This document shows, piece by piece, positions 7,591-64,000 of a DNA stretch of 64,000 bases. How positions within the stretch are numbered: the stretch's first letter is position 1; each line of letters begins with the position of its first letter. The stretch is taken from NCBI GenBank assembly GCA_029262065.1, contig JAJDAC010000044.1, positions 1 through 64,000 of the forward strand. Direction: 5' to 3'. The notes below the pieces were generated by a model. That model was not told the origin of the DNA. It worked only from the letters and a program-made list of their open reading frames with translations, and did no database searches. The stretch comes from Candidatus Krumholzibacteriota bacterium. Lineage in GTDB: Bacteria; Krumholzibacteriota; Krumholzibacteriia; JAJRXK01. Made by a program: the position numbers and the translations under genes.

Positions 7591-7736
7591 GGAGCTGGCT
7601 TCCTTTTGTAGTGTCACGGTTGCGTTACGAGGTGTTGTTCAGGCGTGGCCACGCGTTTCGCGCGAACGAATATTTCATGGCAGCGGCTGCCCACAGCAGG
7701 CAAACCAAAGGCAAAGAAAAAGTATACAGGATTCCC

Positions 7737-7812: not shown

Positions 7813-8988
7813 TTAATTCAATGCATTACGGAACAACACGGAAACCCCTAGGCCACCGCTTACGCAAAGCGTGGCCAGTCCCAGCGCAAGGTCGCGCTGC
7901 GCCAGCTGGTGAAGAAGGGTCGTAGTTATCCGCGCGCCAGTGGCCGCGATGGGGTGCCCGAGGGCGATTGCTCCACCCCGCGTGTTCAACCGCTCCAGGG
8001 GTAGCTTCAGGTCGTGCACACAGGCCAGCACCTGAGCGGCGAACGCCTCGTTCAATTCGATCGCATCGATCTGCTTGAGGCCCACGCCGGTTCGGGCCAA
8101 CAATCGACGCGTGGCGGGCACGGGGCCGATGCCCATGCGGGCGGGATCAACACCAGCCACCTCGTAGTCGAGGACGTGGGCCAAGGCCGACGAACCAGGG
8201 TCGTGGCGCCGCAGAATGATGACCGAGGCCGCATCGGTCAGCCCACTGCTATTGCCAGCCGAGACGGTTCCCTGTTCATCGAACACCGCGGGCAACTTGG
8301 CCAGCTTCTCCAGGCTGGTGGAACGCGGATGCTCATCGTGGTCGAGGCCCGGCCGCTTGCCTTGCGCCGCGACAACGACCATTTCATCCTGAAAAAGTCC
8401 ATCGGCCACGGCCCGGGCCGCCCGCATCTGACTTTCCAACGCGAAACCGTCCTGCTCCTGGCGCGAGATGCCGTATTCGCGAGCCAGTGTTTCGGCCGTC
8501 GCGCCCATGACCTGGTTGGCCAGCGGGCAATGAAAACCGTCCTGCACCATGGCGTCCACCAGAGGCGCGTGCCCCATCCGGTAGCCACTGCGAGCCTTGG
8601 GAAGCAGGTAGGGAACGGTGCTCATGCTCTCGAATCCGCCCACGGCCACATATTCGGCGCGGCCAAGGGCGATATCCTGGACGCCCAGGATCAGGGTTTG
8701 CAGACCACTTCCGCAGGCCATGTTGACAGTCATGGCCCTGACGTCGTGGGACAGACCCGCCCGAATTGCGACCTGGCGCGCCGGATTGGGCCCGTTCCCG
8801 GCCGGCCGGGCGTTGCCCAGGTAGCATGCGTCGACCTGGTCGGGGGCGACTTGGGCCCGGACCAACCCCTCGCGCAGCGCGATCTCGCCCAGGTCCACCG
8901 CCGAACGCTGGGCCAGACTGCCCATGAAGCGGCCGATCGGCGTGCGCACGGCGCTGACCACGTCGGCCAGAGGTGTCAATCTATCCAC
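7813..8988 (-). CDS. Thiolase (acetyl-CoA C-acyltransferase family)
   Basis: A 391-residue thiolase. The GTG at 8986-8988 is chosen because AAGGAGAGG lies 7 bases upstream and the protein then begins at the usual thiolase N-terminus (LADVVSAVRTPIGRFMGSL). The nucleophile Cys is in MTVNMACGSGLQTL (about residue 88). The C-terminal catalytic pair is present as ALGHPIAATGAR (His) and CVSGGLG (Cys), and the NEAFAAQV motif is intact. Length is normal for the family. The reaction is thiolytic release of acetyl-CoA from 3-ketoacyl-CoA, or its reverse. This copy lies apart from the beta-oxidation run at 42-49 kb, which has its own thiolase, so the two may differ in chain length or direction. It is divergent from the glycoside-hydrolase-like gene, with 181 bases between them. 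Confidence 0.9.
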   Translation of the reverse strand: MDRLTPLADVVSAVRTPIGRFMGSLAQRSAVDLGEIALREGLVRAQVAPDQVDACYLGNARPAGNGPNPARQVAIRAGLSHDVRAMTVNMACGSGLQTLILGVQDIALGRAEYVAVGGFESMSTVPYLLPKARSGYRMGHAPLVDAMVQDGFHCPLANQVMGATAETLAREYGISRQEQDGFALESQMRAARAVADGLFQDEMVVVAAQGKRPGLDHDEHPRSTSLEKLAKLPAVFDEQGTVSAGNSSGLTDAASVIILRRHDPGSSALAHVLDYEVAGVDPARMGIGPVPATRRLLARTGVGLKQIDAIELNEAFAAQVLACVHDLKLPLERLNTRGGAIALGHPIAATGARITTTLLHQLAQRDLALGLATLCVSGGLGVSVLFRNALN

Positions 8989-9169
8989 CTGGGAACCTCT
9001 CCTTCGCACGCATGCCCGGGAACCGAAACCGTTATCAGAAAACACGTTGGCCCGTGTCTTGCACGAGCGGAAGAGCCTGTTAGCGGCAAATGTACCTCCA
9101 ATCGGCCGGTCGAGCTACTCGCGACGCTGCGAGCCTCACCTGGCCGGAAGGCAGTCGAGGCTCCCCTCC

Positions 9170-30287: not shown

Positions 30288-32963
30288 CTATTTCAACAGA
30301 ACCATACTGCGTGCTGAAACCTCGCCGCCCTGGCTCAGGACATAGCGGTAGGTGCCCGAGGCTACCGACCGGCCAGACGAATCGATTCCGGTCCAGATGA
30401 TCTCGTGCTCACCAGCCGCACGAACACCATCCACCAGCGTGTTGACCAGCCGACCCCGGTTGTCAAAGACACGCAGGGATACCTGACCCTCGCGAGGCAG
30501 GGCGTACCGGATGACGGTCTCGGGGTTGAAGGGATTCGGGAAATTTTCGTCCAGTCTCAGTTGGCGTGCGGGCGAGTCGACGGCTTTGGATGGAGCCGCG
30601 TGTTCGCTGTTGTCCGAGGCCACCGCCACCACGGTGTACTCGTAGCGATGGGCAGACTCCGTGCTGTCGTCCACGAAACGCGATGTCGACACCGGCAGAA
30701 GACTGGCCACGGTCTGCGTCTGACCGTTGCGGGCTCGATAGACCCGGTAACCGATTACGTCGGACCAGCCGGCCACGCTCCAGGACAGTTCCACCGCGGT
30801 GTCGGTCACTACGGCTTCCATCGATTCGAACTCGGCCGTGGCGAAATCGGGGTCGGTGAATCGAGCCACGTGCCGTGACGGTAGACCGGCCGCGCTGGCG
30901 AAGTTTCCACCGACCCAGATCTCATGCCCACGGAACTCGAGGCCCTTCACCATGCCGTTGACGCCCGATCCCAGGCCCGACCAGGTGGCCCCGTTCCAAC
31001 GCGCGATGTTGTTCACGCGAATACCGTTGGCTCGTTCGAAGTCTCCGCCCACGAACAACTCGTTGTTGCGCGACCGGATCACGCGCACGTTCGTGTAGCC
31101 AGAACCCTCGAAGCCGCCGCCCAGCGCGTGCCATTCCTGACCATCCCAACGCGCGATGTAGTGGGCCGGCTTTCCCCCCGCCTGATCGAAGTGTCCACCC
31201 ACGTAGAGGCTGCCGTCGTCGGTCATGTGCAGCGCTGAAACCACGCTGAAGTCACGACCGCTGAAGGTGACGCCTTCGCCCAACGGCAACCACTCGGTTC
31301 CGTCGAAGTAGGCAACGTTGTTGAAGGTGCGACCGCGGATTTCCGTGAAGCCACCGCCGGCGTACAAACGACCGCCCTCGAGCGCGAGAACCGCGCCCAC
31401 TTTCTGGTTCAGTCCCTCGCCCACCGCGTGCCAGCTCACGCCATCCCAGCGGGCGATGCCAATGGCCTCAATGGGCCCCGCCGTGGTGAACTCGCCCGTC
31501 ACGTAGAGGTCGTGGGTGTCGGGAGCAACCGACATGGCCCGGCACGGATCATTCAGCCCCGCATCCAGGCCGTACCATGCGTTCCCGTCCCAGCGAGCCA
31601 CGTTGTCGGTAACCTGGCCGTCGGCCGTACAGAACATTCCGCCGGCGTACAAGGTCGTGCCGTCCACGGTAGCGGTATGGACCGGCGGCTGATCGAAGCC
31701 CGTCCCCAGATTGCTCCAGGTCTCGCCGTCGTATTTGGTGATGAACCGGGCATCGGCCTGGCCCGCCTGCGTGAACCAACCGCCCACGTAGATATCTGTG
31801 CCCAGGCGCACGATGGGATCCACGTTGCCCTGCAGTCCCATGTGGTTTCGGTCCACCAGACCTACCCACCCGTTTCCGTCCCAGTGGGCCACGTTCTGTA
31901 CGTAGCGATCGTCCGCGCGCTGGAATGTGCCACCCGCGTAGAGCGAGCCCTCAACGAATTCCAGTGTAAGGACGTCTCCGTCCATACCCAGACCCATCGC
32001 GGTCCAATCGGTGCCGTCGTATCGCGCAACGCACGGTGCGGCCACGCCGCCCGCGGTACTGAACTCGCCGCCCGCGAAGATCGTCCCTTGCTCGTCGAGC
32101 GCCAGCGCAAACACGCCAGCGTCAAACCCGGTACCCACCGTGCCCCAGTGCACGCCGTCCCAGGTGGCGATGCGCCCGACCGTCGTACTCCCCGCCTGAT
32201 CGAAAATACCACCCACGAGCAACTTGCCGTCGGGCGCCACGGCCAGCGCGCGTACCATTCCGTTGGTGCCGGCGCCAAGAGGATGCCAATCGGTTCCGTC
32301 GAACGCGGCGATGTTGGATGCGGCCACGCCGCCGGCGGCTTCGAACTTGCCGGCCGCGTAGATCATTCCATGGGCCGCCACCACCTGGCGTACGACGCCA
32401 TCGATGCCGTCTCCCATGGGAAACCAGCGCGATCCATCCCACTGGGCCATCGCGGCCAGCTCGGTGGTACCCGAAGCAGAGAAGATTCCGCCCGCGTAGA
32501 CGGTGCCACCGACCACGGCCAGGTCGTAGACGCGCCCGTCGAGTCCCGCGCCCATGGGAAACCAGACACCGTCGCGCCAACGGGCGATGTTGCTGGTGGT
32601 GAGATCGCCGGCCAGGCCAAACGTGCCACCAACGATGAGCTCTCCGTTGGCGGGCGTCATGACACGAACGTCACCTTCGACGCCGTGGAACGGACCCTCG
32701 TTCAAGCGGGACCAGCCTTGGTCACCCATCCACGTAGCGACACCCTTTACCGCAAGCGAGCCCACGTGATCCATGGCGCCACCAATGAGCACCTGGGAGT
32801 TCTGCGGGGCAATGGCGCGGACCGCACCGTTGGAACCCACGTGTCCAAACTGGGTGTCCCAGTAGATGTCGTCGGGGCTGTACTGCGCGTGCGTGAAATT
32901 GACCAATGCGGCGGCGAGTAGCAACGCCGCTACCGGCACAGATCGACCGATGATGCGAGTCAT
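30288..32963 (-). CDS. Secreted 14-repeat beta-propeller-like protein with FN3 domain and FlgD-like C-terminal tail
   Basis: An 891-residue protein starting with a clear signal peptide (VPVAALLLAAALVNFTHA, cleaved near 26). AAAGG lies about 6 bases before the ATG. The body is a run of 14 imperfect repeats of about 45-50 residues, each with a core like VGG.F..AGG....NIARWDG..W..LG.G and a short hydrophobic strand. This resembles kelch/delta-60-type propeller blades. Residues about 705-800 look like a fibronectin type III domain (VELSWSVAGWSDVIGYRVYR). The last 90 residues are a FlgD-like/T9SS-like tail: DENFPNPFNPETVIRYALP, FDNRGRLVNTLVDG and ASGTYRYVLSQGG, ending in a basic RSMVLLK. An extracellular or surface role is inferred, and the ligand is unknown. 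Confidence 0.8.
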   Translation of the reverse strand: MTRIIGRSVPVAALLLAAALVNFTHAQYSPDDIYWDTQFGHVGSNGAVRAIAPQNSQVLIGGAMDHVGSLAVKGVATWMGDQGWSRLNEGPFHGVEGDVRVMTPANGELIVGGTFGLAGDLTTSNIARWRDGVWFPMGAGLDGRVYDLAVVGGTVYAGGIFSASGTTELAAMAQWDGSRWFPMGDGIDGVVRQVVAAHGMIYAAGKFEAAGGVAASNIAAFDGTDWHPLGAGTNGMVRALAVAPDGKLLVGGIFDQAGSTTVGRIATWDGVHWGTVGTGFDAGVFALALDEQGTIFAGGEFSTAGGVAAPCVARYDGTDWTAMGLGMDGDVLTLEFVEGSLYAGGTFQRADDRYVQNVAHWDGNGWVGLVDRNHMGLQGNVDPIVRLGTDIYVGGWFTQAGQADARFITKYDGETWSNLGTGFDQPPVHTATVDGTTLYAGGMFCTADGQVTDNVARWDGNAWYGLDAGLNDPCRAMSVAPDTHDLYVTGEFTTAGPIEAIGIARWDGVSWHAVGEGLNQKVGAVLALEGGRLYAGGGFTEIRGRTFNNVAYFDGTEWLPLGEGVTFSGRDFSVVSALHMTDDGSLYVGGHFDQAGGKPAHYIARWDGQEWHALGGGFEGSGYTNVRVIRSRNNELFVGGDFERANGIRVNNIARWNGATWSGLGSGVNGMVKGLEFRGHEIWVGGNFASAAGLPSRHVARFTDPDFATAEFESMEAVVTDTAVELSWSVAGWSDVIGYRVYRARNGQTQTVASLLPVSTSRFVDDSTESAHRYEYTVVAVASDNSEHAAPSKAVDSPARQLRLDENFPNPFNPETVIRYALPREGQVSLRVFDNRGRLVNTLVDGVRAAGEHEIIWTGIDSSGRSVASGTYRYVLSQGGEVSARSMVLLK

Positions 32964-50361: not shown

Positions 50362-50811
50362 CTAGAACTGAACCCGTAGCAGCGACAACCGCACTTCACG
50401 GTCGGGGACGCGCGCGAGGTCGTAGCCGTTGGCGCGGTTGAGAAGTTCGGCTCCGCGATACGCGTCGATGCTCGACCATGCCAAGGCGGTACCGTAGAGG
50501 ATCCAACCAATGCCCCGCTCGAAGTCGACGCCGCTTTCGCTTTGCGCCAGTCCGAACACGCGCCCGACCAGCAGCAGACCCAGGCTCGCGGTGGCTACGA
50601 ACGCGTATCCCTTGTTGGGCTGTTCGTTTCCGAACTGGCCCCACCCCGGCAGGATCGCGCTCTTGGTGAACGCCCAGGTGGGGTCACGGTAGCGTTCGAC
50701 TCGTCCTTCGGACTTCATGGCCGATTGGGCCAACGCGGCGGGTGCCTGCGGCCCCACCAGCAACTGGACCATCAGCAACAGGCCCATGAGCCACGGCCAC
50801 GCTCTAACCAC
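50362..50811 (-). CDS. DUF5683-like membrane protein
   Basis: A 149-residue protein from a GTG that overlaps the gatB stop region and has GGAGG 6 bases upstream. A longer frame to 50850 is possible but has no such site. An N-terminal hydrophobic segment (WPWLMGLLLMVQLLVG) is followed by AQSAMKSEGRVERYRDP, then KSAILPGWGQFGNEQPNKGYAF, which resembles the SAxxPGxGQ..N....KG pattern of DUF5683, and further hydrophobic helices. In the FCB group DUF5683 is common among membrane proteins of unknown function. It is the last gene after gatB and may be cotranscribed with it. Confidence 0.65.
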   Translation of the reverse strand: MVRAWPWLMGLLLMVQLLVGPQAPAALAQSAMKSEGRVERYRDPTWAFTKSAILPGWGQFGNEQPNKGYAFVATASLGLLLVGRVFGLAQSESGVDFERGIGWILYGTALAWSSIDAYRGAELLNRANGYDLARVPDREVRLSLLRVQF

Positions 50812-52261
50812 GTCGTTCCTCCAGCGCCTTGCGCACGATGTCGTTGGCAAGCTTCGGATTGGCTTGCCCGCGGGTCAGCTTCATGAGCTGTCCCACGAAG
50901 AATGCGGCCACGCTCTCCTTCCCGTCCAGATACGTCTGTACCTGTTGCGGATGGCTATCGAGAATCTGACGCACCTGCGCGTCGATTTCTCCGACGTCGG
51001 AAATCTGGCGCAAGCCATCCCGTTCGACGATCTCGGCCGCGCTGCCGCCGCCCTGGGTCATCTTCTCGAACACTTCCTTGGCCAAACTACTGCTGACCGT
51101 CCCGTCCACCACGAGCTGGATCAGCTCGGCCAGACCTGACGCCGAGACTCCCAGCGAGTCGATTTCACCGTCGCGCTCGTTGAGCACGCGCGCCACCTCG
51201 CCCACCATCCAGTTGCTTACGAGTTTGCCGGCGCGTTCGACCTTGCCCACGGAAGCCACCACCTGCTCGAAGTAGTCGGCATGAGCGCGACTCTGGCTGA
51301 GCTGGGCCGCGTCATCGGCCGATACTCCGAACTCTCGCACCAACCGGCCGGCCCGCGCCGCGGGCAACTCGGGCAACGCCATACGAACACGCTCGAGCCA
51401 GGCCTCGTCGATCAGGACCGGAGGCAGATCGGGGTCGGGAAAGTAACGATAGTCGCTGGCTTCCTCCTTGCTTCGCATGACGCGCGTGGTATTGCGGTCG
51501 GGGTCCCAAAGACGCGTCTCCTGGCGAATGCGTTCTCCGTCGGCCACCGCTTTCTTCTGTCGTTCGATTTCGTGCACGAGCGCGGCCATGACGCCACGAA
51601 TGGAGTTCATGTTCTTGATTTCGACCTTGGTACCCAACGTGCTCACGCCGACTTCCCGGACCGAGACATTCGCGTCGCACCGCAGGCTTCCCTCTTCCAT
51701 GTTGCCATCGCAGATATCGAGATAGCGAACCAGGCGACGCAACGCCGTGAGGTAGGCGCCCGCCTCTTCCACCGATCGCAAGACGGGCTGGCTGACAATT
51801 TCCACCAACGGTACGCCCGCCCGATTGAGATCCACCAGCGTGGTCTGGCCCTGGGTCTGATCGTGCAGCGACTTGCCCGCGTCTTCTTCGAGGTGAATAC
51901 GCTCGAGCGCCACCGTCGACGGCTTGCCGTCCACCACGATCGGAACTTCACCCCCACGGCAGATCGGCTGATCGAACTGGGATATCTGGTAGTTCTTCGG
52001 GACGTCCGGATAGAAATAGTGTTTGCGCGCGAAGACGTTCGACTCCCGGATCTCACAGCCCAACGCCAAGCCCAGTCGCATGGCAAATTCCACGGCCTTC
52101 ACGTTGACGACAGGCAACGCTCCCGGCAGGCCAAGGCACACCGGGTCGGTCTGGGTGTTCGGTGGCGCCCCGAAAGCCGCTGACGATCCACTGAAGATCT
52201 TGGTCGCCGTGGAAAGTTGGGCGTGCACCTCGAGGCCAATGACCGGTTCCAGCGCGCTCAT
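50804..52261 (-). CDS. gatB: Asp/Glu-tRNA amidotransferase subunit B
   Basis: A 485-residue protein from the ATG that overlaps the gatA stop (ATGA). Signature blocks are VIGLEVHAQLSTATKIFSG, KHYFYPDVPKNYQISQFDQP, RIHLEEDAGKSLHD, DLNRAGVPLVEIVSQP and DCNV-type RCDANVSVREVG, the tRNA-binding cradle. The C-terminal helical and YqeY-like tail (GQLMKLTRGQANPKLANDIVRKAL) is complete. With GatA and GatC it converts misacylated Glu-tRNA(Gln) and/or Asp-tRNA(Asn). Length is typical (about 475-490). Confidence 0.95.
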   Translation of the reverse strand: MSALEPVIGLEVHAQLSTATKIFSGSSAAFGAPPNTQTDPVCLGLPGALPVVNVKAVEFAMRLGLALGCEIRESNVFARKHYFYPDVPKNYQISQFDQPICRGGEVPIVVDGKPSTVALERIHLEEDAGKSLHDQTQGQTTLVDLNRAGVPLVEIVSQPVLRSVEEAGAYLTALRRLVRYLDICDGNMEEGSLRCDANVSVREVGVSTLGTKVEIKNMNSIRGVMAALVHEIERQKKAVADGERIRQETRLWDPDRNTTRVMRSKEEASDYRYFPDPDLPPVLIDEAWLERVRMALPELPAARAGRLVREFGVSADDAAQLSQSRAHADYFEQVVASVGKVERAGKLVSNWMVGEVARVLNERDGEIDSLGVSASGLAELIQLVVDGTVSSSLAKEVFEKMTQGGGSAAEIVERDGLRQISDVGEIDAQVRQILDSHPQQVQTYLDGKESVAAFFVGQLMKLTRGQANPKLANDIVRKALEERRG

Positions 52262-53721
52262 GACGACTTCTCCATGAGCGTCCAACGATCTTCGTCAAAG
52301 CCTCGCACGTGCTCGACCGCGCGCCCGGCCCGAAGCAGAATACCCTCTTGCATGGCCGGAGCCGTCAGATGGATTGCCAGGGGCAATCCCGCCTCGTTGC
52401 ACGCCGTGGGTACCGACAACGCGGGAAGCCCCGTGAGGTTGGCCGACACGGTGTACACATCGCCGAGGTACATGGCCAGAGGGTCAGCGGCCTTCTCGCC
52501 GCGCAGGAACGCGGGCGTGGGCGAAGTTGGTGTGGCAATGACGTCGCACGTCTCGAAGGCCGCATCGAACTCGCGACGCAACAGCGTGCGCACCTGGCTC
52601 GCCTTGTTATAGTAGGCTTCGGCGTACTCGGCCGACAAAACGAACGTTCCCAGCACGATGCGGCGTTTCACCTCGGCCCCGAAACCTTCGGTGCGGGTCG
52701 CGCAGGTCATGTCCACCAACGACTGTTCCTGGGCGCCGTCTTGGGCCTGGGCCCGGTGCCCGTAGCGGATTCCGTCGTACCGAGCCAGGTTGCTCGACGC
52801 TTCGGCCGTGCACAGTACGTAGTAGGTTGCCACCGCGGCCTTGGCGGCCGGCAGATCCACATCGACCAGCTGGGCGCCGGCTTTGCGCAACTGCTCACAC
52901 GTGGCCTCGAAGTCCGCGCGCACATCGGCGTCGACCCCTTCGCTCACCAGCGCTCGCGGTATTCCTACCCGTAACCCCGCCGGCCCGCCTTCGATTTCCG
53001 CCAGTACGTCGCCGACCGGACGGTCCATGGTGGTGGCATCGCGTGGGTCGTGACCGGCCAGCGCGCTGTACACCAACGCGGCGTCGCGCACGTTCCGCGT
53101 GAGCGGCCCAACCTGATCGAGGCTGCTGGCGAATGCCACCAGGCCGAAACGGGACACGCGTCCGTAGGTGGGCTTGAGCCCAACCACACCGCAGAACGCC
53201 GCCGGTTGTCGCACCGATCCACCGGTATCGCTGCCCAGGGCGAACGGAACCATGCCCGCGGCCACGGCCGCCGCCGAACCACCCGAACTGCCACCGGGAA
53301 CGGCGTCTGCATGCCAGGGATTTCGCGAGGGACCGCCGTGCGAATTCTCGGTACTGCTACCCATGGCGAACTCGTCCATGTTCGTAACGCCCAGCAGCGT
53401 GGCGCCCGCTTCGCGCAGCCGAGCCGTGACCGTGGCATCGAAGGGCGATACGTACCCCTTGAGAATCCGACTGCAGCAGGTGAGTTCGCGGCCGACCACC
53501 GCGATGTTGGCCTTGGTGGCGTAGGGGATCCCACTCAACCTGCCGCCGGAAGACGCGGCAACCGGTTCATCGAACACCTCGACGAACGCCTGCAACGCAG
53601 CGTCCGCCTCGCGCACGCGGGCGACGCAGGCTTCGGTCAACTCGGCGCCGGAGAACTCGCCGCGATCCATGCCCTGGAGCAATTGTTCTACCGAGCGGCG
53701 GCTTAGATGCGTCCCACTCAT
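52258..53721 (-). CDS. gatA: Asp/Glu-tRNA amidotransferase subunit A
   Basis: A 487-residue amidase. The Ser-cisSer-Lys triad is visible: Lys in GIPYATKANIAV, the cis-Ser and nucleophilic Ser in VPGGSSGGSAAAVAAGM and LGSDTGGSVRQPAAFCG. Other family segments are LVAFASSLDQVGPLTR and PRALVSEGVDADV. It releases ammonia from glutamine and passes it to GatB. Order C-A-B with 4-base overlaps at both ends suggests one operon downstream of uvrD/pcrA. Confidence 0.95.
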   Translation of the reverse strand: MSGTHLSRRSVEQLLQGMDRGEFSGAELTEACVARVREADAALQAFVEVFDEPVAASSGGRLSGIPYATKANIAVVGRELTCCSRILKGYVSPFDATVTARLREAGATLLGVTNMDEFAMGSSTENSHGGPSRNPWHADAVPGGSSGGSAAAVAAGMVPFALGSDTGGSVRQPAAFCGVVGLKPTYGRVSRFGLVAFASSLDQVGPLTRNVRDAALVYSALAGHDPRDATTMDRPVGDVLAEIEGGPAGLRVGIPRALVSEGVDADVRADFEATCEQLRKAGAQLVDVDLPAAKAAVATYYVLCTAEASSNLARYDGIRYGHRAQAQDGAQEQSLVDMTCATRTEGFGAEVKRRIVLGTFVLSAEYAEAYYNKASQVRTLLRREFDAAFETCDVIATPTSPTPAFLRGEKAADPLAMYLGDVYTVSANLTGLPALSVPTACNEAGLPLAIHLTAPAMQEGILLRAGRAVEHVRGFDEDRWTLMEKSS

Positions 53722-54017
53722 GACGGCTGATCGCCGAGCACGGCTGGGACCTCGAAGAAGTCTCCGTGCCGCGCGGGCGCCGACCGCAGGGCTTCGTCGG
53801 GGGACAGCGATGGTTCCAACTCGTCTTCGCGCAACCCTTGACCCACATCGACCGGCGTCGTCGTTGCCGGTACGCCCGCGGTGTCGATGGCGGCGAGCTG
53901 GTCGATGTACTCGAGAATGGTTTCCAGCTGGCCTTTCAGCTGCAACCGCTCGGCCGGGTCGAGAGTGAGGGCCGCGAGCTTCAGCAGGTCATCAACCGTT
54001 TTGTCGGGTAGAGCCAT
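53718..54017 (-). CDS. gatC: Asp/Glu-tRNA amidotransferase subunit C
   Basis: A 99-residue protein from the ATG of MALPDKTVDDLLKLAALTL, with GGGAG about 5 bases upstream. The frame is open further upstream, but only as the shadow of uvrD. DVGQGLREDELEPSLSPDEAL and the following APARHGDFFEVPAVL are typical of GatC, which clamps GatA to GatB. Length is normal (about 95-100). It begins 17 bases after the helicase stop and its stop overlaps the gatA start. Confidence 0.92.
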   Translation of the reverse strand: MALPDKTVDDLLKLAALTLDPAERLQLKGQLETILEYIDQLAAIDTAGVPATTTPVDVGQGLREDELEPSLSPDEALRSAPARHGDFFEVPAVLGDQPS

Positions 54018-54034
54018 ATTTCTCCCTTGTGGGG

Positions 54035-56338
54035 CTACGGTCCGTCGACCTCGCCTACTACCTGGATCTTGGCGTACTTGGCCAGGACCTTCTTCTTTCC
54101 GGCGTCGGCGAAGTCGATGGTAAGTCGGGTGAGATCCCCGAACCCCTCGACCACCTCGATCGTTCCTTCGCCCAGCTTCTCGTGTTTCACACGCAAACCA
54201 GGTGCGAAGTGTATCTCTTCCTGATTCCATTCGTGCTCTTCGAAACCGTGATCGGGGTCCGAGGCCCGGCTCTTCGCCTGGGCCTGGCTACGCCGAAACG
54301 TCTCGACCGAGAATCCGTTGTCCCACGCCGCGGGCTCATCGCTCCGCGAAACTGGCCGGTGCCGGCGGGGCCCGGCCGATGGGAGGCGCGAAGTGGACCG
54401 CATGGGCGGACGGGTCGAGAGGCCCACCTCCGTGTAGCAGTCGTCGGGTAGTTCACCCAGGAACCGACTGGGCAGCATGGGCTCGTAGCTTCCGAACCGC
54501 TGACGCGAGGCCGCCGAGGAAAGAAACAGGCGACGCTCGGCCCGGGTCAAGGCCACGTAGAAAAGACGTCGCTCTTCCTCGACGCCGTCGTCTTCCTGCA
54601 GACTTGTCATGTGGGGCAGCAACCCCTCTTCGCAACCCGCCACGAACACGTAGGGAAACTCCAACCCCTTGGCGGTATGCATGGTCATGAGCGTCACCAT
54701 GTCGCCCGACTCTTCCAGGCGATCGATATCGGCGAGCAGCGTGACCGACTCCAGGAACTCGGCCAACGTGCCGTCGTCGGTCTCGCTCACGAAACTGTGT
54801 ACGGCGTTACCCAGTTCGGCCACATTCTCCAGACGCTCTTCGGCCGTGGACGGGTCGTCCTTGCGAATCCAGTCCTCGTACTTGATGGCGGCCATCAGCT
54901 GCTTGAATACCGCCACGGCATCGCGCGACTGGGCCAGGCGACCCAGATCTTCGATCAGTCGCGCGAAGGCATATAGTCGCTTGGCCGGCGCCGTGCCCAC
55001 CGTGGACGCCAGGCGAGATGTATCCTTGCACAACTCCAACGGTGAAATACCCGCGGCGGCCGCCGCGCCGTACAGCTTCTCGACGCTGGCCTTGCCGACG
55101 CCGCGTCGCGGCACGTTGATGATCCGCGCCAGACTGATTGAATCGGCGGGATTGGCCAGCACCCGCAGGTACGCCAACAGATCCTTTACCTCACGACGTT
55201 CGAAGAAACGCGTGCCGCCGATGATCTGGTACGGAATGCCTTCACGGCGTAGCGCATCTTCGATCGAGCGGCTTTGCGCGTTGGTGCGATACAGGATCAC
55301 CATTTCCCGACGCGGCACGCCTTCGTTGCCCAGATGACGAATGGTATCGCGGATCTGCCCGGCCTCGTCGTCACCGTCATCGGCCCACCGCAACTCGATG
55401 AGATCGCCGCCCGTCTGCTCGGTCCACAGGGTCTTGCCCTTGCGGCGGCGGTTGTTGGATATGACCGTATTGGCCGCGTTCAGGATGATCGACGTGCTGC
55501 GATAGTTCTGCTCCAGGCGCAGAAGTTTCGAGCCCGGGAAGTAGTCTTCGAACTTCAACATGTTGTCGACGGTGGCTCCGCGCCACGAGTAGATCGACTG
55601 ATCGTCGTCGCCCACCGCGAACAGGTTTCCGTGGGATGCACTGAGGGCACGGATCATGACCAACTGGAGTGGATTCGTGTCCTGGAACTCATCGACCAGA
55701 ACGTACCGGAACCGATCGCTGTATCGCTGCTGGACCTGCGGATGCTCTTCGAACAACTGGACCGTGCGCCCGATCAGGTCATCGAAGTCCATGGCCCCAT
55801 TGGTGCGGAGCCGTCGCTCGTACTCTTCATAGACGTCGGCGCGTTTCTCGTCGCGGTGGGTCAACGCTGACTCTCGCGCCTGCGCCACCGACACGAACGC
55901 GTTCTTCAAACGGCTGATTTCCGACGCCGCGGCTCGCGGCGGAAACTGTTTGGGATCGGCCCTGAGGTCCTTGAGAATGCTGACCATGAGCGAGCGGGTG
56001 TCCACGGCATCGTAGATCGTGAACGAGTTGGGATACCCCAATCGATGGGCTTCTCGTCGCAGGATGCGCACGCCCGTGGCGTGGAAGGTGCCAATCCAGC
56101 AGCGGCCCGCGGCCTGGGGCGCTTCACGCTCAACCCGCCCACGCATCTCACGCGCAGCCTTGTTGGTGAACGTGAATGCGAGGATGGCCTCGGGGGGTAC
56201 ATCGAGCTCACGAATGAGATGAGCGATACGGGTAGTCAGTACACGGGTCTTGCCGCTACCCGCGCCCGCGATGACCAGCCAGGGACCCTCGGTGGAAAGC
56301 ACGGCTTCGCGCTGGGGCGCGTTGAGGCCTGCGAGCAT
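54035..56338 (-). CDS. DNA helicase UvrD/PcrA family (superfamily 1A)
   Basis: A 767-residue helicase. GAGAGGA lies about 8 bases before the ATG. Motifs appear in order: Q-motif region LNAPQREAVLST, motif I VIAGAGSGKTRVL, motif Ia ILAFTFTNKAAREM, motif II VDEFQDTNPLQ, motif III VGDDDQSIYSWRGA, motif IV LRLEQNYRST, motif V VTLMTMHTAKGLEFPYVF and motif VI VALTRAERRLFLS. It translocates 3' to 5' in repair or plasmid/phage replication contexts. The C-terminal 120 residues (after about 650) end in a tudor-like segment FAPGLRVKHEKLGEGTIEVV, a feature of PcrA. PcrA and UvrD cannot be told apart by this alone. Confidence 0.93.
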   Translation of the reverse strand: MLAGLNAPQREAVLSTEGPWLVIAGAGSGKTRVLTTRIAHLIRELDVPPEAILAFTFTNKAAREMRGRVEREAPQAAGRCWIGTFHATGVRILRREAHRLGYPNSFTIYDAVDTRSLMVSILKDLRADPKQFPPRAAASEISRLKNAFVSVAQARESALTHRDEKRADVYEEYERRLRTNGAMDFDDLIGRTVQLFEEHPQVQQRYSDRFRYVLVDEFQDTNPLQLVMIRALSASHGNLFAVGDDDQSIYSWRGATVDNMLKFEDYFPGSKLLRLEQNYRSTSIILNAANTVISNNRRRKGKTLWTEQTGGDLIELRWADDGDDEAGQIRDTIRHLGNEGVPRREMVILYRTNAQSRSIEDALRREGIPYQIIGGTRFFERREVKDLLAYLRVLANPADSISLARIINVPRRGVGKASVEKLYGAAAAAGISPLELCKDTSRLASTVGTAPAKRLYAFARLIEDLGRLAQSRDAVAVFKQLMAAIKYEDWIRKDDPSTAEERLENVAELGNAVHSFVSETDDGTLAEFLESVTLLADIDRLEESGDMVTLMTMHTAKGLEFPYVFVAGCEEGLLPHMTSLQEDDGVEEERRLFYVALTRAERRLFLSSAASRQRFGSYEPMLPSRFLGELPDDCYTEVGLSTRPPMRSTSRLPSAGPRRHRPVSRSDEPAAWDNGFSVETFRRSQAQAKSRASDPDHGFEEHEWNQEEIHFAPGLRVKHEKLGEGTIEVVEGFGDLTRLTIDFADAGKKKVLAKYAKIQVVGEVDGP

Positions 56339-56386: not shown

Positions 56387-59300
56387 TCAGAAATCGGGGC
56401 CGATGGAGAAGGTGTAATGGACGTCGCCGCCGGTGGTGATGAGATCGGACTTCCAGGCCCAATCGAATTTCAGCGGAAGGAAGCCAACGTTCGCTCTTAT
56501 ACCAAAGCCGATGTCGGCGTTCAAGTCTTGCAGCTGCAGGTTTCCCTGCGAGGTGCGCGCAAAGGGCTGGAAATCGTCGCCGAAGGCGCTGCCCACGTCG
56601 ATGAACGCCACCGCGCCCACCCCACCAATGGCGAATCGGCCGGGCCATCCCAGAAACAGCGCGTCCACGAACGGAAACCGGTACTCCATATTGAATACCA
56701 ACATGTTGTTGCCCAACAGCCCTTCGTTGAGCAGGTTGCCCGAGGCGTCGGTCCGTTCGAAGTCGTACAGATCGAATCCACGCAGGGTGCCCGGGCCGCC
56801 TACTACGAAGTTTCTCGGCGTGCCGCCGCTGCTGGTTGCGCCCACGAACCTCAGGGCCAGACTGTTGCGATCCCACATGCGCATGTAGCGCCGATAGTCC
56901 ATGAAGGTCGTAACGCGATTCACGTCCTTGCTGGACACGGGAATGGCCGGCGAAAAGCTTACAAGGAAACGGCTACCGGTCACCGGACCATGGCGACCAT
57001 AGAACGCCGAGTCGTGGATGTAGCTGAGCGAAGGCTGCAGCAATCGGTCGGACTGATCGCGTACCTCGGAGTACTGCAAATTGGCTTCGTCGTACTCGAA
57101 GAATGTCTTCTTGCTCACGAACGCCTGTAACTCGAAGTCCAGACGATCGAAATGCGTCAACGGCAAGCTGGCCAGGCCGAAGAGACCGTAGTTGCGCTCG
57201 CTGAACAGCTCACTGCTTTCGAACACCTCGCCCAGTCGCGTGAAATTACTGTTGATGAAATTCCGGTAGTGGAATATCCCGCCCGCAAAATTGACCCGCC
57301 GCTTCAGGTAGTAGTAGCTGGCCGCCAGATCGCTGTACTTCAACGATCCGTAGAAATTCACGAGAAACTGCATGCGATGGTTGCCCAGCAGGTCGCTCAG
57401 GCTGAGCACGTTCGCGAAGCCCAGGCCCAAGCCTGACGAATAGGACACGGCGCCGCCGCGACCACCGACGGGGTCGAATGACCACCGAAGTGAATAGGGC
57501 TCTACCGTTCCCACGGGAGTTCGCGGCTCGAAGAGGGGTACATCGGGTCCGCTGGCATCGGCTACGTCCAGGACCCCACCTTCGGCCAGGTCCGCCGTTT
57601 CCGCCGGCACTTCCGCTTCGGCCGGATCTGCCGTTTCGGCCGGATCAACCGTTTCGGCACCGCCATCGGCGCTCTCGTCGTCTGGGGAAGCACCGTTGCG
57701 GGCCAGCTCTTCTTCGGCCCGTGCTAAACGCGCCAGCACCGTCCCGTCGGCCGAATCAAGCGCGCCCCGCGGGCGCGTCTTGTCCCGCTCCATCTCGGCC
57801 TGCGCCGGCGATTTGGCGTCGACCACGTCGGCTGTGGTCTCCGACCCGGGACGCGGCACCGAAGGCAGCGTTTCATCCACGCGCGGCGTGGCCACCAACT
57901 GAAAACCGGGCTTGGCACCGCGGGCCGAGATCAGCTCGGTCTCCCCCTCCTGGGGGAACTGGATGGATTCGATGGTGCCGGAAAAATCCTCACCCACGAA
58001 GATGTCCCAACCGCCCTCGTTGAATGCCGAAAAAGCAAAGCGATTGGCGGTGGTACTGACCGAAGGGTGGAAGATTCCACCCAATACATCGGTAAAGCGT
58101 TGCGTCTGGTTTTCCGAGATGACATGCACGTGCAGGTTCTTGACCCCGGTCTGGTTGCTCACGAACACGATCGTGTCGTCATCGACCATGAAGGGATCGG
58201 TATCGTCGCCTGGAGTGCTGACGATCCGGGCCACGGTGCCCGTCTTCACATCGAGGGCCATGAGATCGAGCGACTCACGCACGTCGCGCACGTTGGTCCG
58301 ACTCGTGAAATCCACCGGCGTCAGGCGCTTCTCGCCCTCGGGATTCGCTTCCACCGCCACCGGAACGAACGTGTCGGGAAAGCCGCTGAACAGGATGCGC
58401 GAGCCGTCCGGGTACCAGGCGGGCGAATGCTCATCGCCCACGTCGTCGGTCAGTGGTTCCACCCGCCCGCTGTCCAGATCCACCAGGTACAAATCGGTCT
58501 GGCCACCCCTGGTACCACTGAGCACTACCTCGTCGGCCACCGGCGACCAGGCCGGGCTGCGCGCAATGTCCATGTTCAAGGCTATGGACTTCTCGATTCC
58601 GCCATCTTCAATGCCCACCACGTACAGCACTTCGTCCTGGCCACTCTTGGCCACGAAGCAGACCTCGTCGCTGTCCGGCGAGAAGCCGATGCTGCTATTG
58701 AAACTGTGGAGCGTGAGAAAGTCGTTGCTGCGGTAACCGGTCACCAGCTTGCGCAGTGTATCGCCGCCCTCCACGCTGGAAACGTAGAGGCTCACGAATC
58801 CCTCCACGTCGCTGAAGAACGCCACGTACTCGCCGTTTGGCGATAACACCGGCTGCTGAAAGAAGTAGTTCCCCTCTTTCGCGTGGTTCGTCAGACGACG
58901 TCCTATCGCGTCGGGCTCCTGTTTGTGGGAATACAGCGACCAATATTCCTGCTTCAACGACTTGATCCAGTGTTCAGAGAACGTGGATTGATCGACCCCC
59001 AACGTTTGCACCAACGCGGCATTCACGTCTCGCGTGCGCCCGACCTCCTTGAACAGATCCACGACCTTGTCATCACCGTAGGTCCGGGCGATGTACCGCA
59101 TGGCCGACTGACCCTGCTTGTACACACCGAAGAACCCGCCGTAGGCGCGCGGCAGGGGTATGGTGTAGTCGTAGATGGTAGCGTCCCGCAGCCACATGTC
59201 GGCCGCCTGATCCCAACCGGTACTGAACCACTCGGCCGCGCCTTCGGCGAACCAGAGGGGCAACGGGAAGAACTGTCGTCGCGACCCCTTCTGCGTGGAG

Positions 59301-59773
59301 TGGTAGACGATGTCGAACATGAACACGTGCACCATCTCGTGGTTGATCACGTGCACGAACCCCTGATTGTCCCCCGGGTAGGGCAGCACCACGCGATTGC
59401 GCAATGGCTCACTGAAGCCACCGGTGCCCTCGCCAATGAGACCGGGGCTCACGTTGGTCTGCTGAAAGTCGTTGGGCGAGGCATACAGAATGAACGGAAT
59501 CTGCGTCGACAGTTCATGGTCGAAGGTTTCGCTCAACCGGTTGTACGCGTCTTCGGCGATCACCGCCGTGCGAGCGGCGAGCTCCTGCTCATCGGAGTAG
59601 AAGAAGATCTCGAAGTGCGGCGTACTGAGAATCTGCCAGTCGAAGTTCTCGTACTGAATCTTGTTGCGGCCGAAGTGCTGCGCCGAAGCCGGCCCGACGT
59701 CAAACATGCTCACAAGGAGCAGCAGCGTCAGGAGGGCTGCGAAGCAAGATCGCGGAAGAGGCATGGCCGTCAT
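56387..59773 (-). CDS. Exported peptidase / TolB-like propeller / Omp85-like beta-barrel fusion
   Basis: A 1128-residue protein. The ATG at 59773 has AAGGTGG about 5 bases upstream. Other starts within 10 residues are possible. A signal peptide (FAALLTLLLLVSMFDVG, cleavage after SAQ near 32) precedes a gluzincin-like peptidase domain (about 45-280) with intact zinc site HEMVH (His145, Glu146, His149) and third-ligand region LWFAEGAAEWF. About 305-600 is a TolB/WD40-like propeller (RSPAWSPVADEVVLSGTRGG, SPAWYPDGSRILFSG). About 610-750 is an acidic, Ala/Glu-rich low-complexity linker. About 755-1128 is a beta-barrel with an Omp85/surface-antigen style end (GGPGTLRGFDLYDF, FNMEYRFPF, RFAIGGVGAVAFIDVGSAF and a final aromatic GPDF). 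It lies 291 bases downstream of tamB. The combination is inferred to export or process proteins at the outer membrane. Confidence 0.72.
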   Translation of the reverse strand: MTAMPLPRSCFAALLTLLLLVSMFDVGPASAQHFGRNKIQYENFDWQILSTPHFEIFFYSDEQELAARTAVIAEDAYNRLSETFDHELSTQIPFILYASPNDFQQTNVSPGLIGEGTGGFSEPLRNRVVLPYPGDNQGFVHVINHEMVHVFMFDIVYHSTQKGSRRQFFPLPLWFAEGAAEWFSTGWDQAADMWLRDATIYDYTIPLPRAYGGFFGVYKQGQSAMRYIARTYGDDKVVDLFKEVGRTRDVNAALVQTLGVDQSTFSEHWIKSLKQEYWSLYSHKQEPDAIGRRLTNHAKEGNYFFQQPVLSPNGEYVAFFSDVEGFVSLYVSSVEGGDTLRKLVTGYRSNDFLTLHSFNSSIGFSPDSDEVCFVAKSGQDEVLYVVGIEDGGIEKSIALNMDIARSPAWSPVADEVVLSGTRGGQTDLYLVDLDSGRVEPLTDDVGDEHSPAWYPDGSRILFSGFPDTFVPVAVEANPEGEKRLTPVDFTSRTNVRDVRESLDLMALDVKTGTVARIVSTPGDDTDPFMVDDDTIVFVSNQTGVKNLHVHVISENQTQRFTDVLGGIFHPSVSTTANRFAFSAFNEGGWDIFVGEDFSGTIESIQFPQEGETELISARGAKPGFQLVATPRVDETLPSVPRPGSETTADVVDAKSPAQAEMERDKTRPRGALDSADGTVLARLARAEEELARNGASPDDESADGGAETVDPAETADPAEAEVPAETADLAEGGVLDVADASGPDVPLFEPRTPVGTVEPYSLRWSFDPVGGRGGAVSYSSGLGLGFANVLSLSDLLGNHRMQFLVNFYGSLKYSDLAASYYYLKRRVNFAGGIFHYRNFINSNFTRLGEVFESSELFSERNYGLFGLASLPLTHFDRLDFELQAFVSKKTFFEYDEANLQYSEVRDQSDRLLQPSLSYIHDSAFYGRHGPVTGSRFLVSFSPAIPVSSKDVNRVTTFMDYRRYMRMWDRNSLALRFVGATSSGGTPRNFVVGGPGTLRGFDLYDFERTDASGNLLNEGLLGNNMLVFNMEYRFPFVDALFLGWPGRFAIGGVGAVAFIDVGSAFGDDFQPFARTSQGNLQLQDLNADIGFGIRANVGFLPLKFDWAWKSDLITTGGDVHYTFSIGPDF

Positions 59774-60038
59774 GGGCACCACCTTGGGGGCGGAGAGAAC
59801 ACCACGGCATACTGGAGCGAGGGCCCGATCAAGCAGGGTTCAGGCCCAATTGAACTCAGCGATCAGGGGAACGAGCCAGCCTTGTGTACGTCGTGGTGCA
59901 GGGGCGTCGCGTTAGATCAAGTCTACCGGAACGGCGGATTCGGGGTCAATTCGACCATCCGGCCAAACCCTCGAATTCAGGCCCCTACCCCATCATTGGT
60001 GCCATTTCGCATGAAGCCGCCGCGCGGCGGATAGCGGT

Positions 60039-60073
60039 GAGTACTTCCAGGAAGGGTCCCGGAGTCAGTACTC
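60039..60073 (-). other. Inverted repeat at the 3' end of tamB
   Basis: Arms GAGTACT (60039-60045) and AGTACTC (60067-60073) surround a 21-base spacer that contains a GGGTCCC palindrome. The second arm includes the tamB stop codon. The 291-base gap to the next gene (59774-60064) has no gene. A short frame on the plus strand there (59884-60099) has no recognised start context or family. The gap also contains CCGCCG/CGGCGG (60017-60030) with too small a loop to be a hairpin by itself. Confidence 0.3.
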
Positions 60074-63000
60074 CAGACGGAACTTCAGATCGACGTTGAA
60101 CTGGGTCTGCGTGGCGTTCTCACGCAGCCGCCGGCGCACCTCGCTGTTGAACAGCCAACGTCGACTGATCTGGTATTCGAAGAACAGATCACGCTCGGTA
60201 ATGGACAGACCCTGACTGAAACGAAGATAGAGGTTGTTCGTCAGGTACTTGCCCACCGCGATACGGGTGCTCTCGAGCTCCTCGAGACCCGCCTCCTGCG
60301 TCTGGATGTCGATCGTGTCGACCAGATCGATCTGATCGGCAACCACGCGCCCGAACGAACTCGCGGCCACCCGGTACCCGATGTCACCGATTCCCGCGCC
60401 CGAACCCTCGGCGGGACCGATACCAAGCAGCATCCGGAGAATAGTCTGTTCGTCATACCCCGATTCGCTCGTGAACGTGAGCTGGGGCGTCGACATGGTG
60501 CCGGTCATGTCGACGGTCACAAGTTCGAGATCGCGACCCAGCACCGAACTGCGATCGTACAGAGGCACCTCGGTTTCGGCCGTGATGTTCATGGCCGGAT
60601 CCAGCCCTACGCCCTGACTGAAATCCAGACGTCCCCGGGTAATGTTGAAGTCCTGATACAGAACCCGCACACGCCCCTGGGGAATCTCCACCTGTCCGCG
60701 GTAATGAAAACCCGCCTCGTCACGCACGAAGTCGAAGTCTCCCAGAATCCGAAGCTCCAACTGGTCGTTCTTCACCAGAACACGGTCCTGGGCCCGCACA
60801 CGCACATCGGCCATCCACTCCGGGGTGGACGTGGCCGGTAGCACGTTGGTAGCGGTGCCCGACCCGTCGTCGCCGAACGTCCCGGTGTACTCGGCCCTCC
60901 GACACACGACGTTTCCCGTCAACTTGGGTGCGCGCGGACCGGTGGCCAGGGGGCGAACCAGCCGAAGCTGCAAGTCGTCCGAGGACCCAATCGCGCGCAG
61001 CGACGGAACCGAGACCAGCAACAGATCGCGCGCCCAGAAGTCCATGATGATGTCGTCGGGCAGGAGTCCCAGGAAGGCGATCTCGGTCCGGCGAGCCTGC
61101 AGCACGCCGTTCTTGCCCTCGCTCGCGCTGACATTGGATAGATGCAGCGTGTTGTCGCGCACGACACCTTCGATTTCGATGTCGCGAAAGACCTCCAGGG
61201 TGCCGGCCCATTGCGCCACGCCACCGCTGATCTTTACCGACCCGGCGATGTTCGGTGCCGCCAGGGTGCCCGTGGCCTCGTACAACATCTCGATCTCGCC
61301 CTCGAGCCGCGTGAAGAATGGCCAGCACGTGTTCACCGGTCGGATGTCCACCGGTCCTCGGGAGTCGAACACCAGGCGGAACGGATCGCCACGCTCGAAG
61401 CGGGGTTGTTCGGCCAGTGAAAGATAGATGGGTAGGTGCCCCAGTGTGGTGATCCACGGATCCGGAGCAGAGATCGTACCCTGGTCGAAGGTGATGCCCG
61501 TGGTGTCCACGCGCACGTGGCCGCTGGCCGAAGGGATCTGCAGGTCTCCCAACTGGAAGCCCGTGAGCTGCGCGAACCCATCGAGCTCGGGCGCCTGCGC
61601 CGTGCCTCGCAACGTCCACTGCCCCGCGGCCGTACCCCAATCAGTGCGCGCCGCCTGTGGTGGAAGCCATTGTGAAATCCCCACCTGATCGGCCTCGACC
61701 TGCAGATCGAGCGTGAGCGTTCGCCACAGGTCGAACCACAGCGACGGATCATCGATGGCGGCCGTGAGCCAGGCGTTGCGGTCAGCTTGAGCGGTGCCCT
61801 GCACGCTGAACAGCCCGTGTGGACTGCTCGCCCGCATGGATCGCAGCTGGAACGCCCGACCATCGAAATCAAGATCGAACGCCAGCGCGTCCAGCTGCTG
61901 GCCGGCCCAGGTTGGGTTCTGGATGCCCAACCGGATCTCGCCCCCGGGCCGATCCATCCGGCCCGTGAACGCAACCGTACCTCCCACCTGGCCACCCAGG
62001 TCCGTTGGGGCAAGCCCCATGGTTCCCAGAATCGCCAGGTCGCCTTCGGTCAGCGACAGTTTCAGATCGGCGGCGCCATCGAGATCGATGCCCCCCTCGA
62101 GTACGAACGATCCGGTGTTGGATCCAATGGAAATCCTGGGCGTGTGGAACGAGCGGCGCTCCACGTTCACCGTAGTGGGTTCACGCAGGCGCCACGCTTC
62201 CTTCACCAGGTCCAACTCCATGGTGTTCGCTTCCACGCTTACGTGATCGTCTTCGATCACGATGGCCCCCTGCGCCACCATGGTGGTGTCGCCGAGCGCG
62301 ACATTCGCCTCGTCGATATCCAGTCGAAAATCGCGCAGGCGGAGTTTGGTGTTCAACTGGCCCAAGAACCGACCGCGACCCTTGAGTCGATTCACGGTGA
62401 AGTCGCCGTTGAACTGAGACCAGTCCAGGTAGTCCTCGAAGTCCACCGTGAGCGTTTGATCGCTACCCTCGAAGCCGTAGCCATCGGCCCTCTCGATCTG
62501 ACCCGTCAAGCGCAACGCGATCGCATCGATCGGCCCTCGCAGCTGTCCGTCGCCCGTGAAACCAAAGGCACGAACACCGGGCACCTTTCCCCACCGGATC
62601 CAGTTCTGCAGATCGTCGGCCTGCGCCTTCACATCGATGCTCACGATGTCGTTCACGTCCACCGTGCCGCTGCCGTCGAAATTGGCCCCGAACGCACGCC
62701 CGATCGCGCGATTCAAGACCAAGCCGTTCGCGTCGGTATAGCGCAGATCGACCGAAGTCTCCTCGATGGGAATGTCCAGAACCGTGCCCAACATGGATTC
62801 GCCCAGCAGATCCATTTCGAATCGGCCGGGCCGCAAATTCAGTCGCAGGTCGAACTCGCCACTCAGGTCGCTCTGGGGCCATCCGGTTGGTTCTCCCACC
62901 CACGGTTGCTCCAGGTCGATGTTGGCCGCCCGGCCACGCACCGTAAGGATGTCGGGCCCGATCACTAATTGGCCGGACGCACTCACCTCGGCTTCGAGGA

Positions 63001-63973
63001 ACGCGCCCCGGAAGTTGGAGAATCGCATGTCGTCTTCGATCAGCCGGGCCGCCACCGCGTCGGCTCGATAGGGATAGCCCTGGATGACTCCGTGGCCGCG
63101 CCCGTCGAAGTCGATCACCTTGTTCGCATCCATCCGGATACGCAGCTCGCCCTCGTGGTGAAGATCCACCGCCTGCTTCTTGCCCAGTATGCGAAGCACT
63201 TCGTTCAGGTTGGAGCGCTTGGCCTGCGTGTCCAACCGCAGCGACTCGACCTTGCCGGTTTCGAGGAACACGAATTCGCCCTCGGCCTGGGCGTCGGTGC
63301 TGTCGAATACCGCGTGGGCGTTGATGATCTCCAGGCGCCGGTCGGCGGGGAAAAAACGAGCTTCGCCACCCACGCTGTGCACAAGCAGATCGCGACTGCG
63401 CCAGTCACCGCGCGCCGCCGCCGTATCCACCGTCCAGTTCCCATCGCGACGGCGGATGGACCCGTGCCAGTGGCCGTCCTGGATGTCTTCGACCAACTCC
63501 CCACTGGCATCGGTTACCGTCACCGAGAAATCGCGCAGCTCGGCCCGACCCAACGTGATGGGCATCTCACCCGAACCCGGCGGCTCACTGCGCGGACGGG
63601 AGATTGCGTCCTCGGGCCCTTTGCGCAACAGCAGTTGCGTTCCGTACACGGTAGCCCGCCGAATGCGGATGTCGTTGCGAAGAATGGCGCGTAGGTCGTA
63701 CTCGACCTCGACGCTGTCGGCCGTGAGGTAGCTGAAACTTCCGTCGAGACCGCGGCGGGTCAACGATACGGCGTAGAAGTTCATGCCTTCCAGCGGGTTT
63801 CCCTTGAGGTCCCGGCAGGCAAACGTGATGCCGGTGTCGCGGAGCAGATTTCGGCTGATCACGCGGCCGACATGGCCCGCGTACAGGGTGGGATGCGCCG
63901 CCAGCCAGGCCAAAACGGCCAACGCCAGCAAGAGCGCCACCAGGAGGGTTATTCGCGTCGTTCGTACCCACAC
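60065..63973 (-). CDS. tamB: Translocation and assembly module protein TamB
   Basis: A 1302-residue inner-membrane-anchored, periplasm-spanning protein, complete in this window. It starts with GTG, with AGGG about 9 bases upstream. An N-terminal transmembrane helix (ITLLVALLLALAVLAWLAA) is followed by a long beta-helical region with repeated amphipathic strands (for example TLTVDFEDYLDWSQFNGDF and MDLLGESMLGTVLDIPIEET) and the conserved C-terminal TamB/DUF490 domain (ILRMLLGIGPAEGSG, GRVVADQIDLVDTIDIQ, GKYLTNNLYLRFSQGLS, FEYQISRRWLFNSEVR). With TamA it helps place certain proteins and lipids in the outer membrane. No canonical TamA gene was found; the barrel protein just downstream is the obvious candidate partner. 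Length is close to E. coli TamB (about 1259). Confidence 0.88.
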   Translation of the reverse strand: MWVRTTRITLLVALLLALAVLAWLAAHPTLYAGHVGRVISRNLLRDTGITFACRDLKGNPLEGMNFYAVSLTRRGLDGSFSYLTADSVEVEYDLRAILRNDIRIRRATVYGTQLLLRKGPEDAISRPRSEPPGSGEMPITLGRAELRDFSVTVTDASGELVEDIQDGHWHGSIRRRDGNWTVDTAAARGDWRSRDLLVHSVGGEARFFPADRRLEIINAHAVFDSTDAQAEGEFVFLETGKVESLRLDTQAKRSNLNEVLRILGKKQAVDLHHEGELRIRMDANKVIDFDGRGHGVIQGYPYRADAVAARLIEDDMRFSNFRGAFLEAEVSASGQLVIGPDILTVRGRAANIDLEQPWVGEPTGWPQSDLSGEFDLRLNLRPGRFEMDLLGESMLGTVLDIPIEETSVDLRYTDANGLVLNRAIGRAFGANFDGSGTVDVNDIVSIDVKAQADDLQNWIRWGKVPGVRAFGFTGDGQLRGPIDAIALRLTGQIERADGYGFEGSDQTLTVDFEDYLDWSQFNGDFTVNRLKGRGRFLGQLNTKLRLRDFRLDIDEANVALGDTTMVAQGAIVIEDDHVSVEANTMELDLVKEAWRLREPTTVNVERRSFHTPRISIGSNTGSFVLEGGIDLDGAADLKLSLTEGDLAILGTMGLAPTDLGGQVGGTVAFTGRMDRPGGEIRLGIQNPTWAGQQLDALAFDLDFDGRAFQLRSMRASSPHGLFSVQGTAQADRNAWLTAAIDDPSLWFDLWRTLTLDLQVEADQVGISQWLPPQAARTDWGTAAGQWTLRGTAQAPELDGFAQLTGFQLGDLQIPSASGHVRVDTTGITFDQGTISAPDPWITTLGHLPIYLSLAEQPRFERGDPFRLVFDSRGPVDIRPVNTCWPFFTRLEGEIEMLYEATGTLAAPNIAGSVKISGGVAQWAGTLEVFRDIEIEGVVRDNTLHLSNVSASEGKNGVLQARRTEIAFLGLLPDDIIMDFWARDLLLVSVPSLRAIGSSDDLQLRLVRPLATGPRAPKLTGNVVCRRAEYTGTFGDDGSGTATNVLPATSTPEWMADVRVRAQDRVLVKNDQLELRILGDFDFVRDEAGFHYRGQVEIPQGRVRVLYQDFNITRGRLDFSQGVGLDPAMNITAETEVPLYDRSSVLGRDLELVTVDMTGTMSTPQLTFTSESGYDEQTILRMLLGIGPAEGSGAGIGDIGYRVAASSFGRVVADQIDLVDTIDIQTQEAGLEELESTRIAVGKYLTNNLYLRFSQGLSITERDLFFEYQISRRWLFNSEVRRRLRENATQTQFNVDLKFRLEY

Positions 63974-64000
63974 AGTCAGATCACCCTACTAGAACGCGTG

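Follow-up and report, generated by a model that had tools for sequence, protein, structure and literature searches.

The window, by which we mean the whole 64,000-nucleotide stretch of DNA analysed, contains near its end a gene for a fusion protein, set in a block of genes on the reverse strand (Table 1). Encoded in order are a signal peptide, a gluzincin-like peptidase, a TolB-like propeller, an acidic linker and an Omp85 barrel. Both this reading frame and that of tamB2 lie where the original prediction had placed them.

Table 1. Features of the fusion gene and its neighbours in the window
Feature	Position	Strand	Residues	Description and basis
gatC-gatA-gatB	50804..54230	(-)		Conserved end of the block; named from sequence
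UvrD-type helicase gene	54035..56338	(-)		Conserved downstream neighbour; named from sequence
Fusion protein gene	56387..59782	(-)	1131 aa from GTG; 1128 aa from inner ATG at 59773
Omp85-type beta-barrel	56390..57520	(-)	755-1131	Terminal Phe; PF01103
RGF of barrel loop L6	56774..56782	(-)		Omp85 signature RG-F/Y
Acidic low-complexity linker	57521..57865	(-)	~640-754	From sequence
TolB-like beta-propeller	57968..58897	(-)	~296-605	PD40/TolB models, TolB structures
Peptidase MA-like (gluzincin) domain	58928..59677	(-)	36-285	PF13485 (below cut-off in this protein, matched by 20 of 21 members) and collagenase profile match
WFAEG	59240..59254	(-)	from 177	Predicted third zinc ligand E180
HEMVH	59327..59341	(-)		Predicted zinc ligands H148 and H152, catalytic E149
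Signal peptide	59678..59773	(-)	~4-35	Hydrophobic core, then ASA/QHF; read from sequence
tamB2	60065..63973	(-)		TamB/DUF490 C-terminal domain; directly upstream of fusion; PF04357, 114 bits

Domain assignment and conserved sites

HMM searches, which the original prediction had proposed as a check, place the propeller (PD40, 56 bits) and the barrel (Omp85, 49 bits over residues 890-1131) above their Pfam cut-offs, but the peptidase below it. Peptidase_MA_2 (PF13485) matches residues 76-277 with 22.4 bits, and with 27.4 bits when the domain is scanned alone, against a cut-off of 32.4. Yet 20 of the 21 family members match this model, the best with 1.2e-13, and a relative from Bacteroidetes (L019) exceeds the cut-off at 33.5 bits. 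Further, the profile of the family's peptidase domain matches peptidase units of collagenases among solved structures (E 0.0014), and the HExxH and downstream glutamate ligand of the peptidase MA/gluzincin type are present in the fusion (H148, E149, H152, E180). Judged from these sequence matches, the peptidase assignment is firm at the family level. The 'Metallo' group of Omp85 proteins was ruled out, as it is defined by PF00149, which we take to be a metallophosphoesterase family and not a gluzincin one.

The propeller matches TolB structures through sequence search. That the protein is TolB itself was ruled out: the fusion reaches 98.8 bits with the NCBIfam TolB equivalog, below its cut-off of 343, and the genome has a separate TolB-like gene (C14), as well as a Pal-like gene. 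The profile of the barrel region matches the structures of 9ccg (a POTRA-domain protein), TamA and BamA. Compared by hhalign with the phylum's TamA/BamA alignment it gives 99.2% over 178 aligned columns, which represent the C-terminal half; the first ~175 barrel residues fall outside the alignment. The length of 377 residues suits a barrel of 16 strands, a count that is only predicted. Neither POTRA (PF07244) nor patatin domains were found in the fusion by the Pfam scan. The predicted layout, from the signal peptide to a C-terminal Omp85-like barrel without POTRA, is in this way borne out. A misassembled or chimeric reading frame was ruled out as well, given full-length relatives with the same make-up in dozens of independent genomes.

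Structure prediction, from which a 16-strand barrel and a zinc peptidase fold had been expected, supported the propeller only. With three sequences only, AlphaFold gave a moderate model of the N-terminal half (pLDDT 58) and a barrel with a pLDDT of 37. Propellers, TolB included, are among the 50 Foldseek matches listed for the N-terminal half; as these matches are propellers they carry no information on the peptidase fold.

In an alignment of 27 family members H148, E149, H152, E180 and G181 are near-invariant; for the predicted zinc ligands and E149 this means at least 96%, with none substituted among the rows shown. The predicted ligands and E149 are also kept in the three paralogues of the fusion in its own genome. 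The zinc site was originally described as intact, and its conservation in the aligned sequences appears well beyond chance. Near-invariant in the same 27 sequences are also R1001 and G1002 of barrel loop L6, the C-terminal F1131, and F37, G38, N40 and K41 of a conserved FGRNK motif that follows the signal peptide.

Gene order across the phylum

Among 80 genomes of the phylum 53 have the fusion; one more, with a paralogue alone, was left out. The gene order in the phylum is tamA2-tamB2-fusion-uvrD-gatCAB, where tamA2 is a second Omp85 gene, with POTRA, and the order from tamA2 to uvrD is kept across seven families. In 49 of the 53 genomes the fusion follows tamB directly and in the same orientation, with a gap of 5-286 nt, which is the conserved pairing that had been predicted. 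Of the remaining four, G078 and G047 have only fragments of the fusion, on contigs without that tamB, and G004 and G008 (family f2) have a divergent relative at another site, which the tree places with a paralogue. None of 31 places of paralogues is within 15 kb of a tamB, which makes the linkage specific to the fusion branch. Going by gene order, we take the association between fusion and tamB to be real, phylum-wide and specific.

Directly upstream of tamB2, tamA2 is found in nearly all relatives, including genomes of the same family (G001 and G002). It is present wherever there is sufficient upstream sequence, with the exception of the single-contig L087 and L100, which have rearranged or broken genes. 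No further gene lies between tamB2 and the edge of the window, and the spot of tamA2 would fall past position 64000, where an intact tamA2 is expected. In relatives without the fusion the order tamA2-tamB2-uvrD is unchanged, and genomes of families f5 and f2 that have no fusion after tamB2 still carry tamA2. Since tamA2 is kept both with and without the fusion, the fusion looks like an addition to TamA, not a substitute for it. Family f5 is mixed: the fusion is in place in some genera and missing from others, which keep tamA2-tamB2-uvrD. In the tree the f5 fusions are neighbours of those of f1, which agrees with vertical inheritance and losses; the deeper branches of this tree are long and their placement is uncertain.

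Over 21 complete blocks the mean pairwise identity is 45% for the fusion, 39% for tamA2 and 29% for tamB2, indicating a stronger constraint on the fusion than on its two neighbours. When the uvrD background is removed, the distances of the fusion correlate with those of tamB2 and tamA2 (partial r 0.50 and 0.48), and those of tamA2 and tamB2 with each other (partial r 0.65 in the same 21 blocks). This is a rough test with non-independent pairs, and it only suggests that the fusion tracks its two neighbours beyond the uvrD background.

Two irregular loci were seen among the relatives. In G022, a single-contig genome, the fusion is in two distant pieces (C1:878861-880159, adjoining tamB2, and C1:3161621-3163855, adjoining uvrD), which looks like a rearrangement or an assembly join within the gene. 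At L114:1-9003 (+) an open frame of 3000 codons spans tamA2 and tamB2 in another frame and runs into the fusion, which high G+C probably explains.

Related genes in this genome and in Bacteroidetes

This genome has ten Omp85 matches and two TamB genes. The second, tamB1, adjoins a TamA with three POTRA domains, so that there is a second tamA/tamB pair. The three paralogues of the fusion (G000 C17:136701, C16:94066 and C27:70846; L053, L054 and L055) are 1014-1117 aa long. All have peptidase-like and propeller regions with an intact HExxH and none is near tamB; Pfam recognises an Omp85 barrel in the C16 copy only. The genome further encodes several M48 peptidases. The LptD model (PF04453) has no match in it, so a parallel to BepA and LptD cannot be drawn.

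A wider contig scan found two loci only, both in distant Bacteroidetes: two MAG contigs (L019 and L020) that encode the same domain make-up, the acidic linker being missing from the L019 protein. The gene that follows in L019 (6874-8043) encodes a BamB-type PQQ propeller (PF13360, PQQ_2), and the one that follows in L020 (11868-13109) a similar, lipoprotein-like propeller, judged by eye. No tamB was found on these contigs of 10 and 13 kb; the TamB genes of those genomes are elsewhere. These neighbours are hints that fusion-like proteins may be used near outer-membrane assembly more widely.

Possible roles at the outer membrane

Propeller-Omp85 proteins have been listed since 2014 without an assigned function. 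Heinz and Lithgow named the WD40-Omp85 subfamily and likened it to a fusion of BamA and BamB, and their passages on this group mention no peptidase domain or linkage to tamB (PMC4104836). Ten years later the WD40-like group is still listed as poorly characterised, in the 2024 paper on PlpD (PMC11116518). Set beside the 2014 group by description, the fusion family fits as a member: both have a TolB-like N-terminal propeller, a C-terminal Omp85 barrel and no POTRA. The difference is that the fusion has a peptidase and is linked to tamB, neither of which is in those passages on the subfamily. Among the open-access papers that our searches returned, none describes a peptidase-propeller-Omp85 protein next to tamB, and in what was searched the peptidase domain and TAM linkage of WD40-Omp85 proteins appear undescribed.

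Several known systems share single traits with the fusion. PlpD, the patatin-like Omp85 protein of Pseudomonas, also has a soluble enzyme domain ahead of the barrel, but it is a lipase with one POTRA and no propeller, whereas the fusion has a peptidase and a propeller and no POTRA. TamA and TamL have a homologous barrel and are likewise encoded beside tamB; they differ from the fusion in having POTRA, and in the relatives a separate POTRA TamA fills this role in the same operon. The propeller is related to that of TolB and resembles the TolB/BamB propellers, although the fusion misses the TolB equivalog cut-off. BamB docks on BamA. The clients and accessory factors of TAM are still debated. 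BepA, an M48 metallopeptidase, acts on clients at BAM (PMC8423444). As a zinc metallopeptidase of the periplasm that acts on barrel assembly, BepA would, by analogy only, be the counterpart of the fusion; it belongs to another peptidase family and is a separate soluble protein without a barrel.

We consider it about an even chance (roughly 0.5) that the fusion is a zinc peptidase of the WD40-Omp85 type, anchored in the outer membrane and facing the periplasm, and a dedicated third part of a tamA2-tamB2-fusion operon. Once exported by Sec, the protein would insert its C-terminal barrel in the outer membrane and keep both ends on the periplasmic side, leaving peptidase and propeller to hang under the membrane beside a bridge of TamA2 and TamB2. 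The propeller might be a platform for docking or for holding substrates, as in BamB and TolB, and the peptidase could, much like BepA at BAM, cut TAM clients that are stalled, misfolded or still maturing. The barrel may be an anchor alone or also a gate competent for assembly. Perhaps the fusion is a built-in quality-control module, like BepA and BamB. A more specific version is tentative: a TAM of three parts in which the fusion inspects clients and cuts failed ones, and in which its barrel and TamA2 might together make up a paired or hybrid gate. If true, a protease would be covalently built into an Omp85 assembly module.

Against a third TAM part speaks that co-location is not proof of interaction. 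Many f5 genomes have tamA2-tamB2-uvrD without the fusion, indicating that TAM can work without it; the nearest relative in f2 sits away from tamB, the two Bacteroidetes contigs show no tamB, and the several M48 peptidases of this genome could do the quality control. The main rival is an outer-membrane peptidase that is co-transcribed with TAM yet independent of it, for instance one that processes lipoproteins, peptides or the surface layer; the operon would then give only a shared timing of envelope expression. This is possible but doubtful. Paralogues with the same zinc site occur elsewhere in the genome without tamB, and since uvrD and gatCAB of the block have unrelated functions, the position by itself may be inherited order; the tamB-linked branch alone, however, holds its place across families at ~40% identity, and its distances track tamB2 and tamA2 in the rough test above. 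The original prediction was bolder and saw an alternative TamA, with the fusion as the main outer-membrane partner of tamB2. An Omp85 barrel with an RGF motif adjoining tamB, and no POTRA gene beside tamB within the window, would agree with this. But it did not hold up and is now very improbable indeed: both the separate POTRA TamA, which it had named as evidence against itself, and the conserved tamB pairing, whose lack it had also named, were found, with tamA2 directly preceding this tamB in nearly all relatives, fusion or not, while the fusion has no POTRA and the genome a second tamA1/tamB1 pair.

Another question is on which side the soluble domains lie, which had been called impossible to tell from sequence. 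The precedent of BamA, TamA and PlpD makes the periplasm by far likelier. In the opposite case the barrel would pass the peptidase and the propeller through to the cell surface, as in type Vd-like autotransport. The enzyme-barrel layout for which this was once proposed in PlpD, the flexible acidic linker ahead of the barrel and secreted collagenases among the nearest solved relatives of the peptidase would suit such a display, but it is improbable: the enzyme domain of PlpD is periplasmic and was shown to remain so (PMC11116518), in the Omp85 proteins studied the N-terminal domains face the periplasm, and a folded propeller with a peptidase makes a poor passenger. Finally, the peptidase domain could lack catalytic activity or do no more than bind peptides, as a chaperone-like holdase, in line with the match of this protein below the curated Pfam cut-off. 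Given predicted zinc ligands and a catalytic glutamate that are near-invariant in 27 relatives and kept in the paralogues, this is very unlikely.

One propeller-Omp85 branch, with its conserved zinc site, is tied to TamA and TamB by a phylum-wide operon, and this gives it a testable candidate role, proteolytic quality control or maturation at TAM. It is also further evidence that Omp85 barrels get reused as carriers of periplasmic enzymes.

Other large or envelope-related proteins were noted apart from this locus. AMPK1_CBM-type glycogen-binding modules are found on apparent envelope proteins at L059:5238-6896 (-) and in the window at 8924-11866 (+), in one of the two ahead of an Omp85 barrel. 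Large proteins at 4195-7617 (-) and 30288-32963 (-) of the window have FlgD_ig-like C-terminal domains, possibly sorting signals, and one of them has a Rax2-like propeller.
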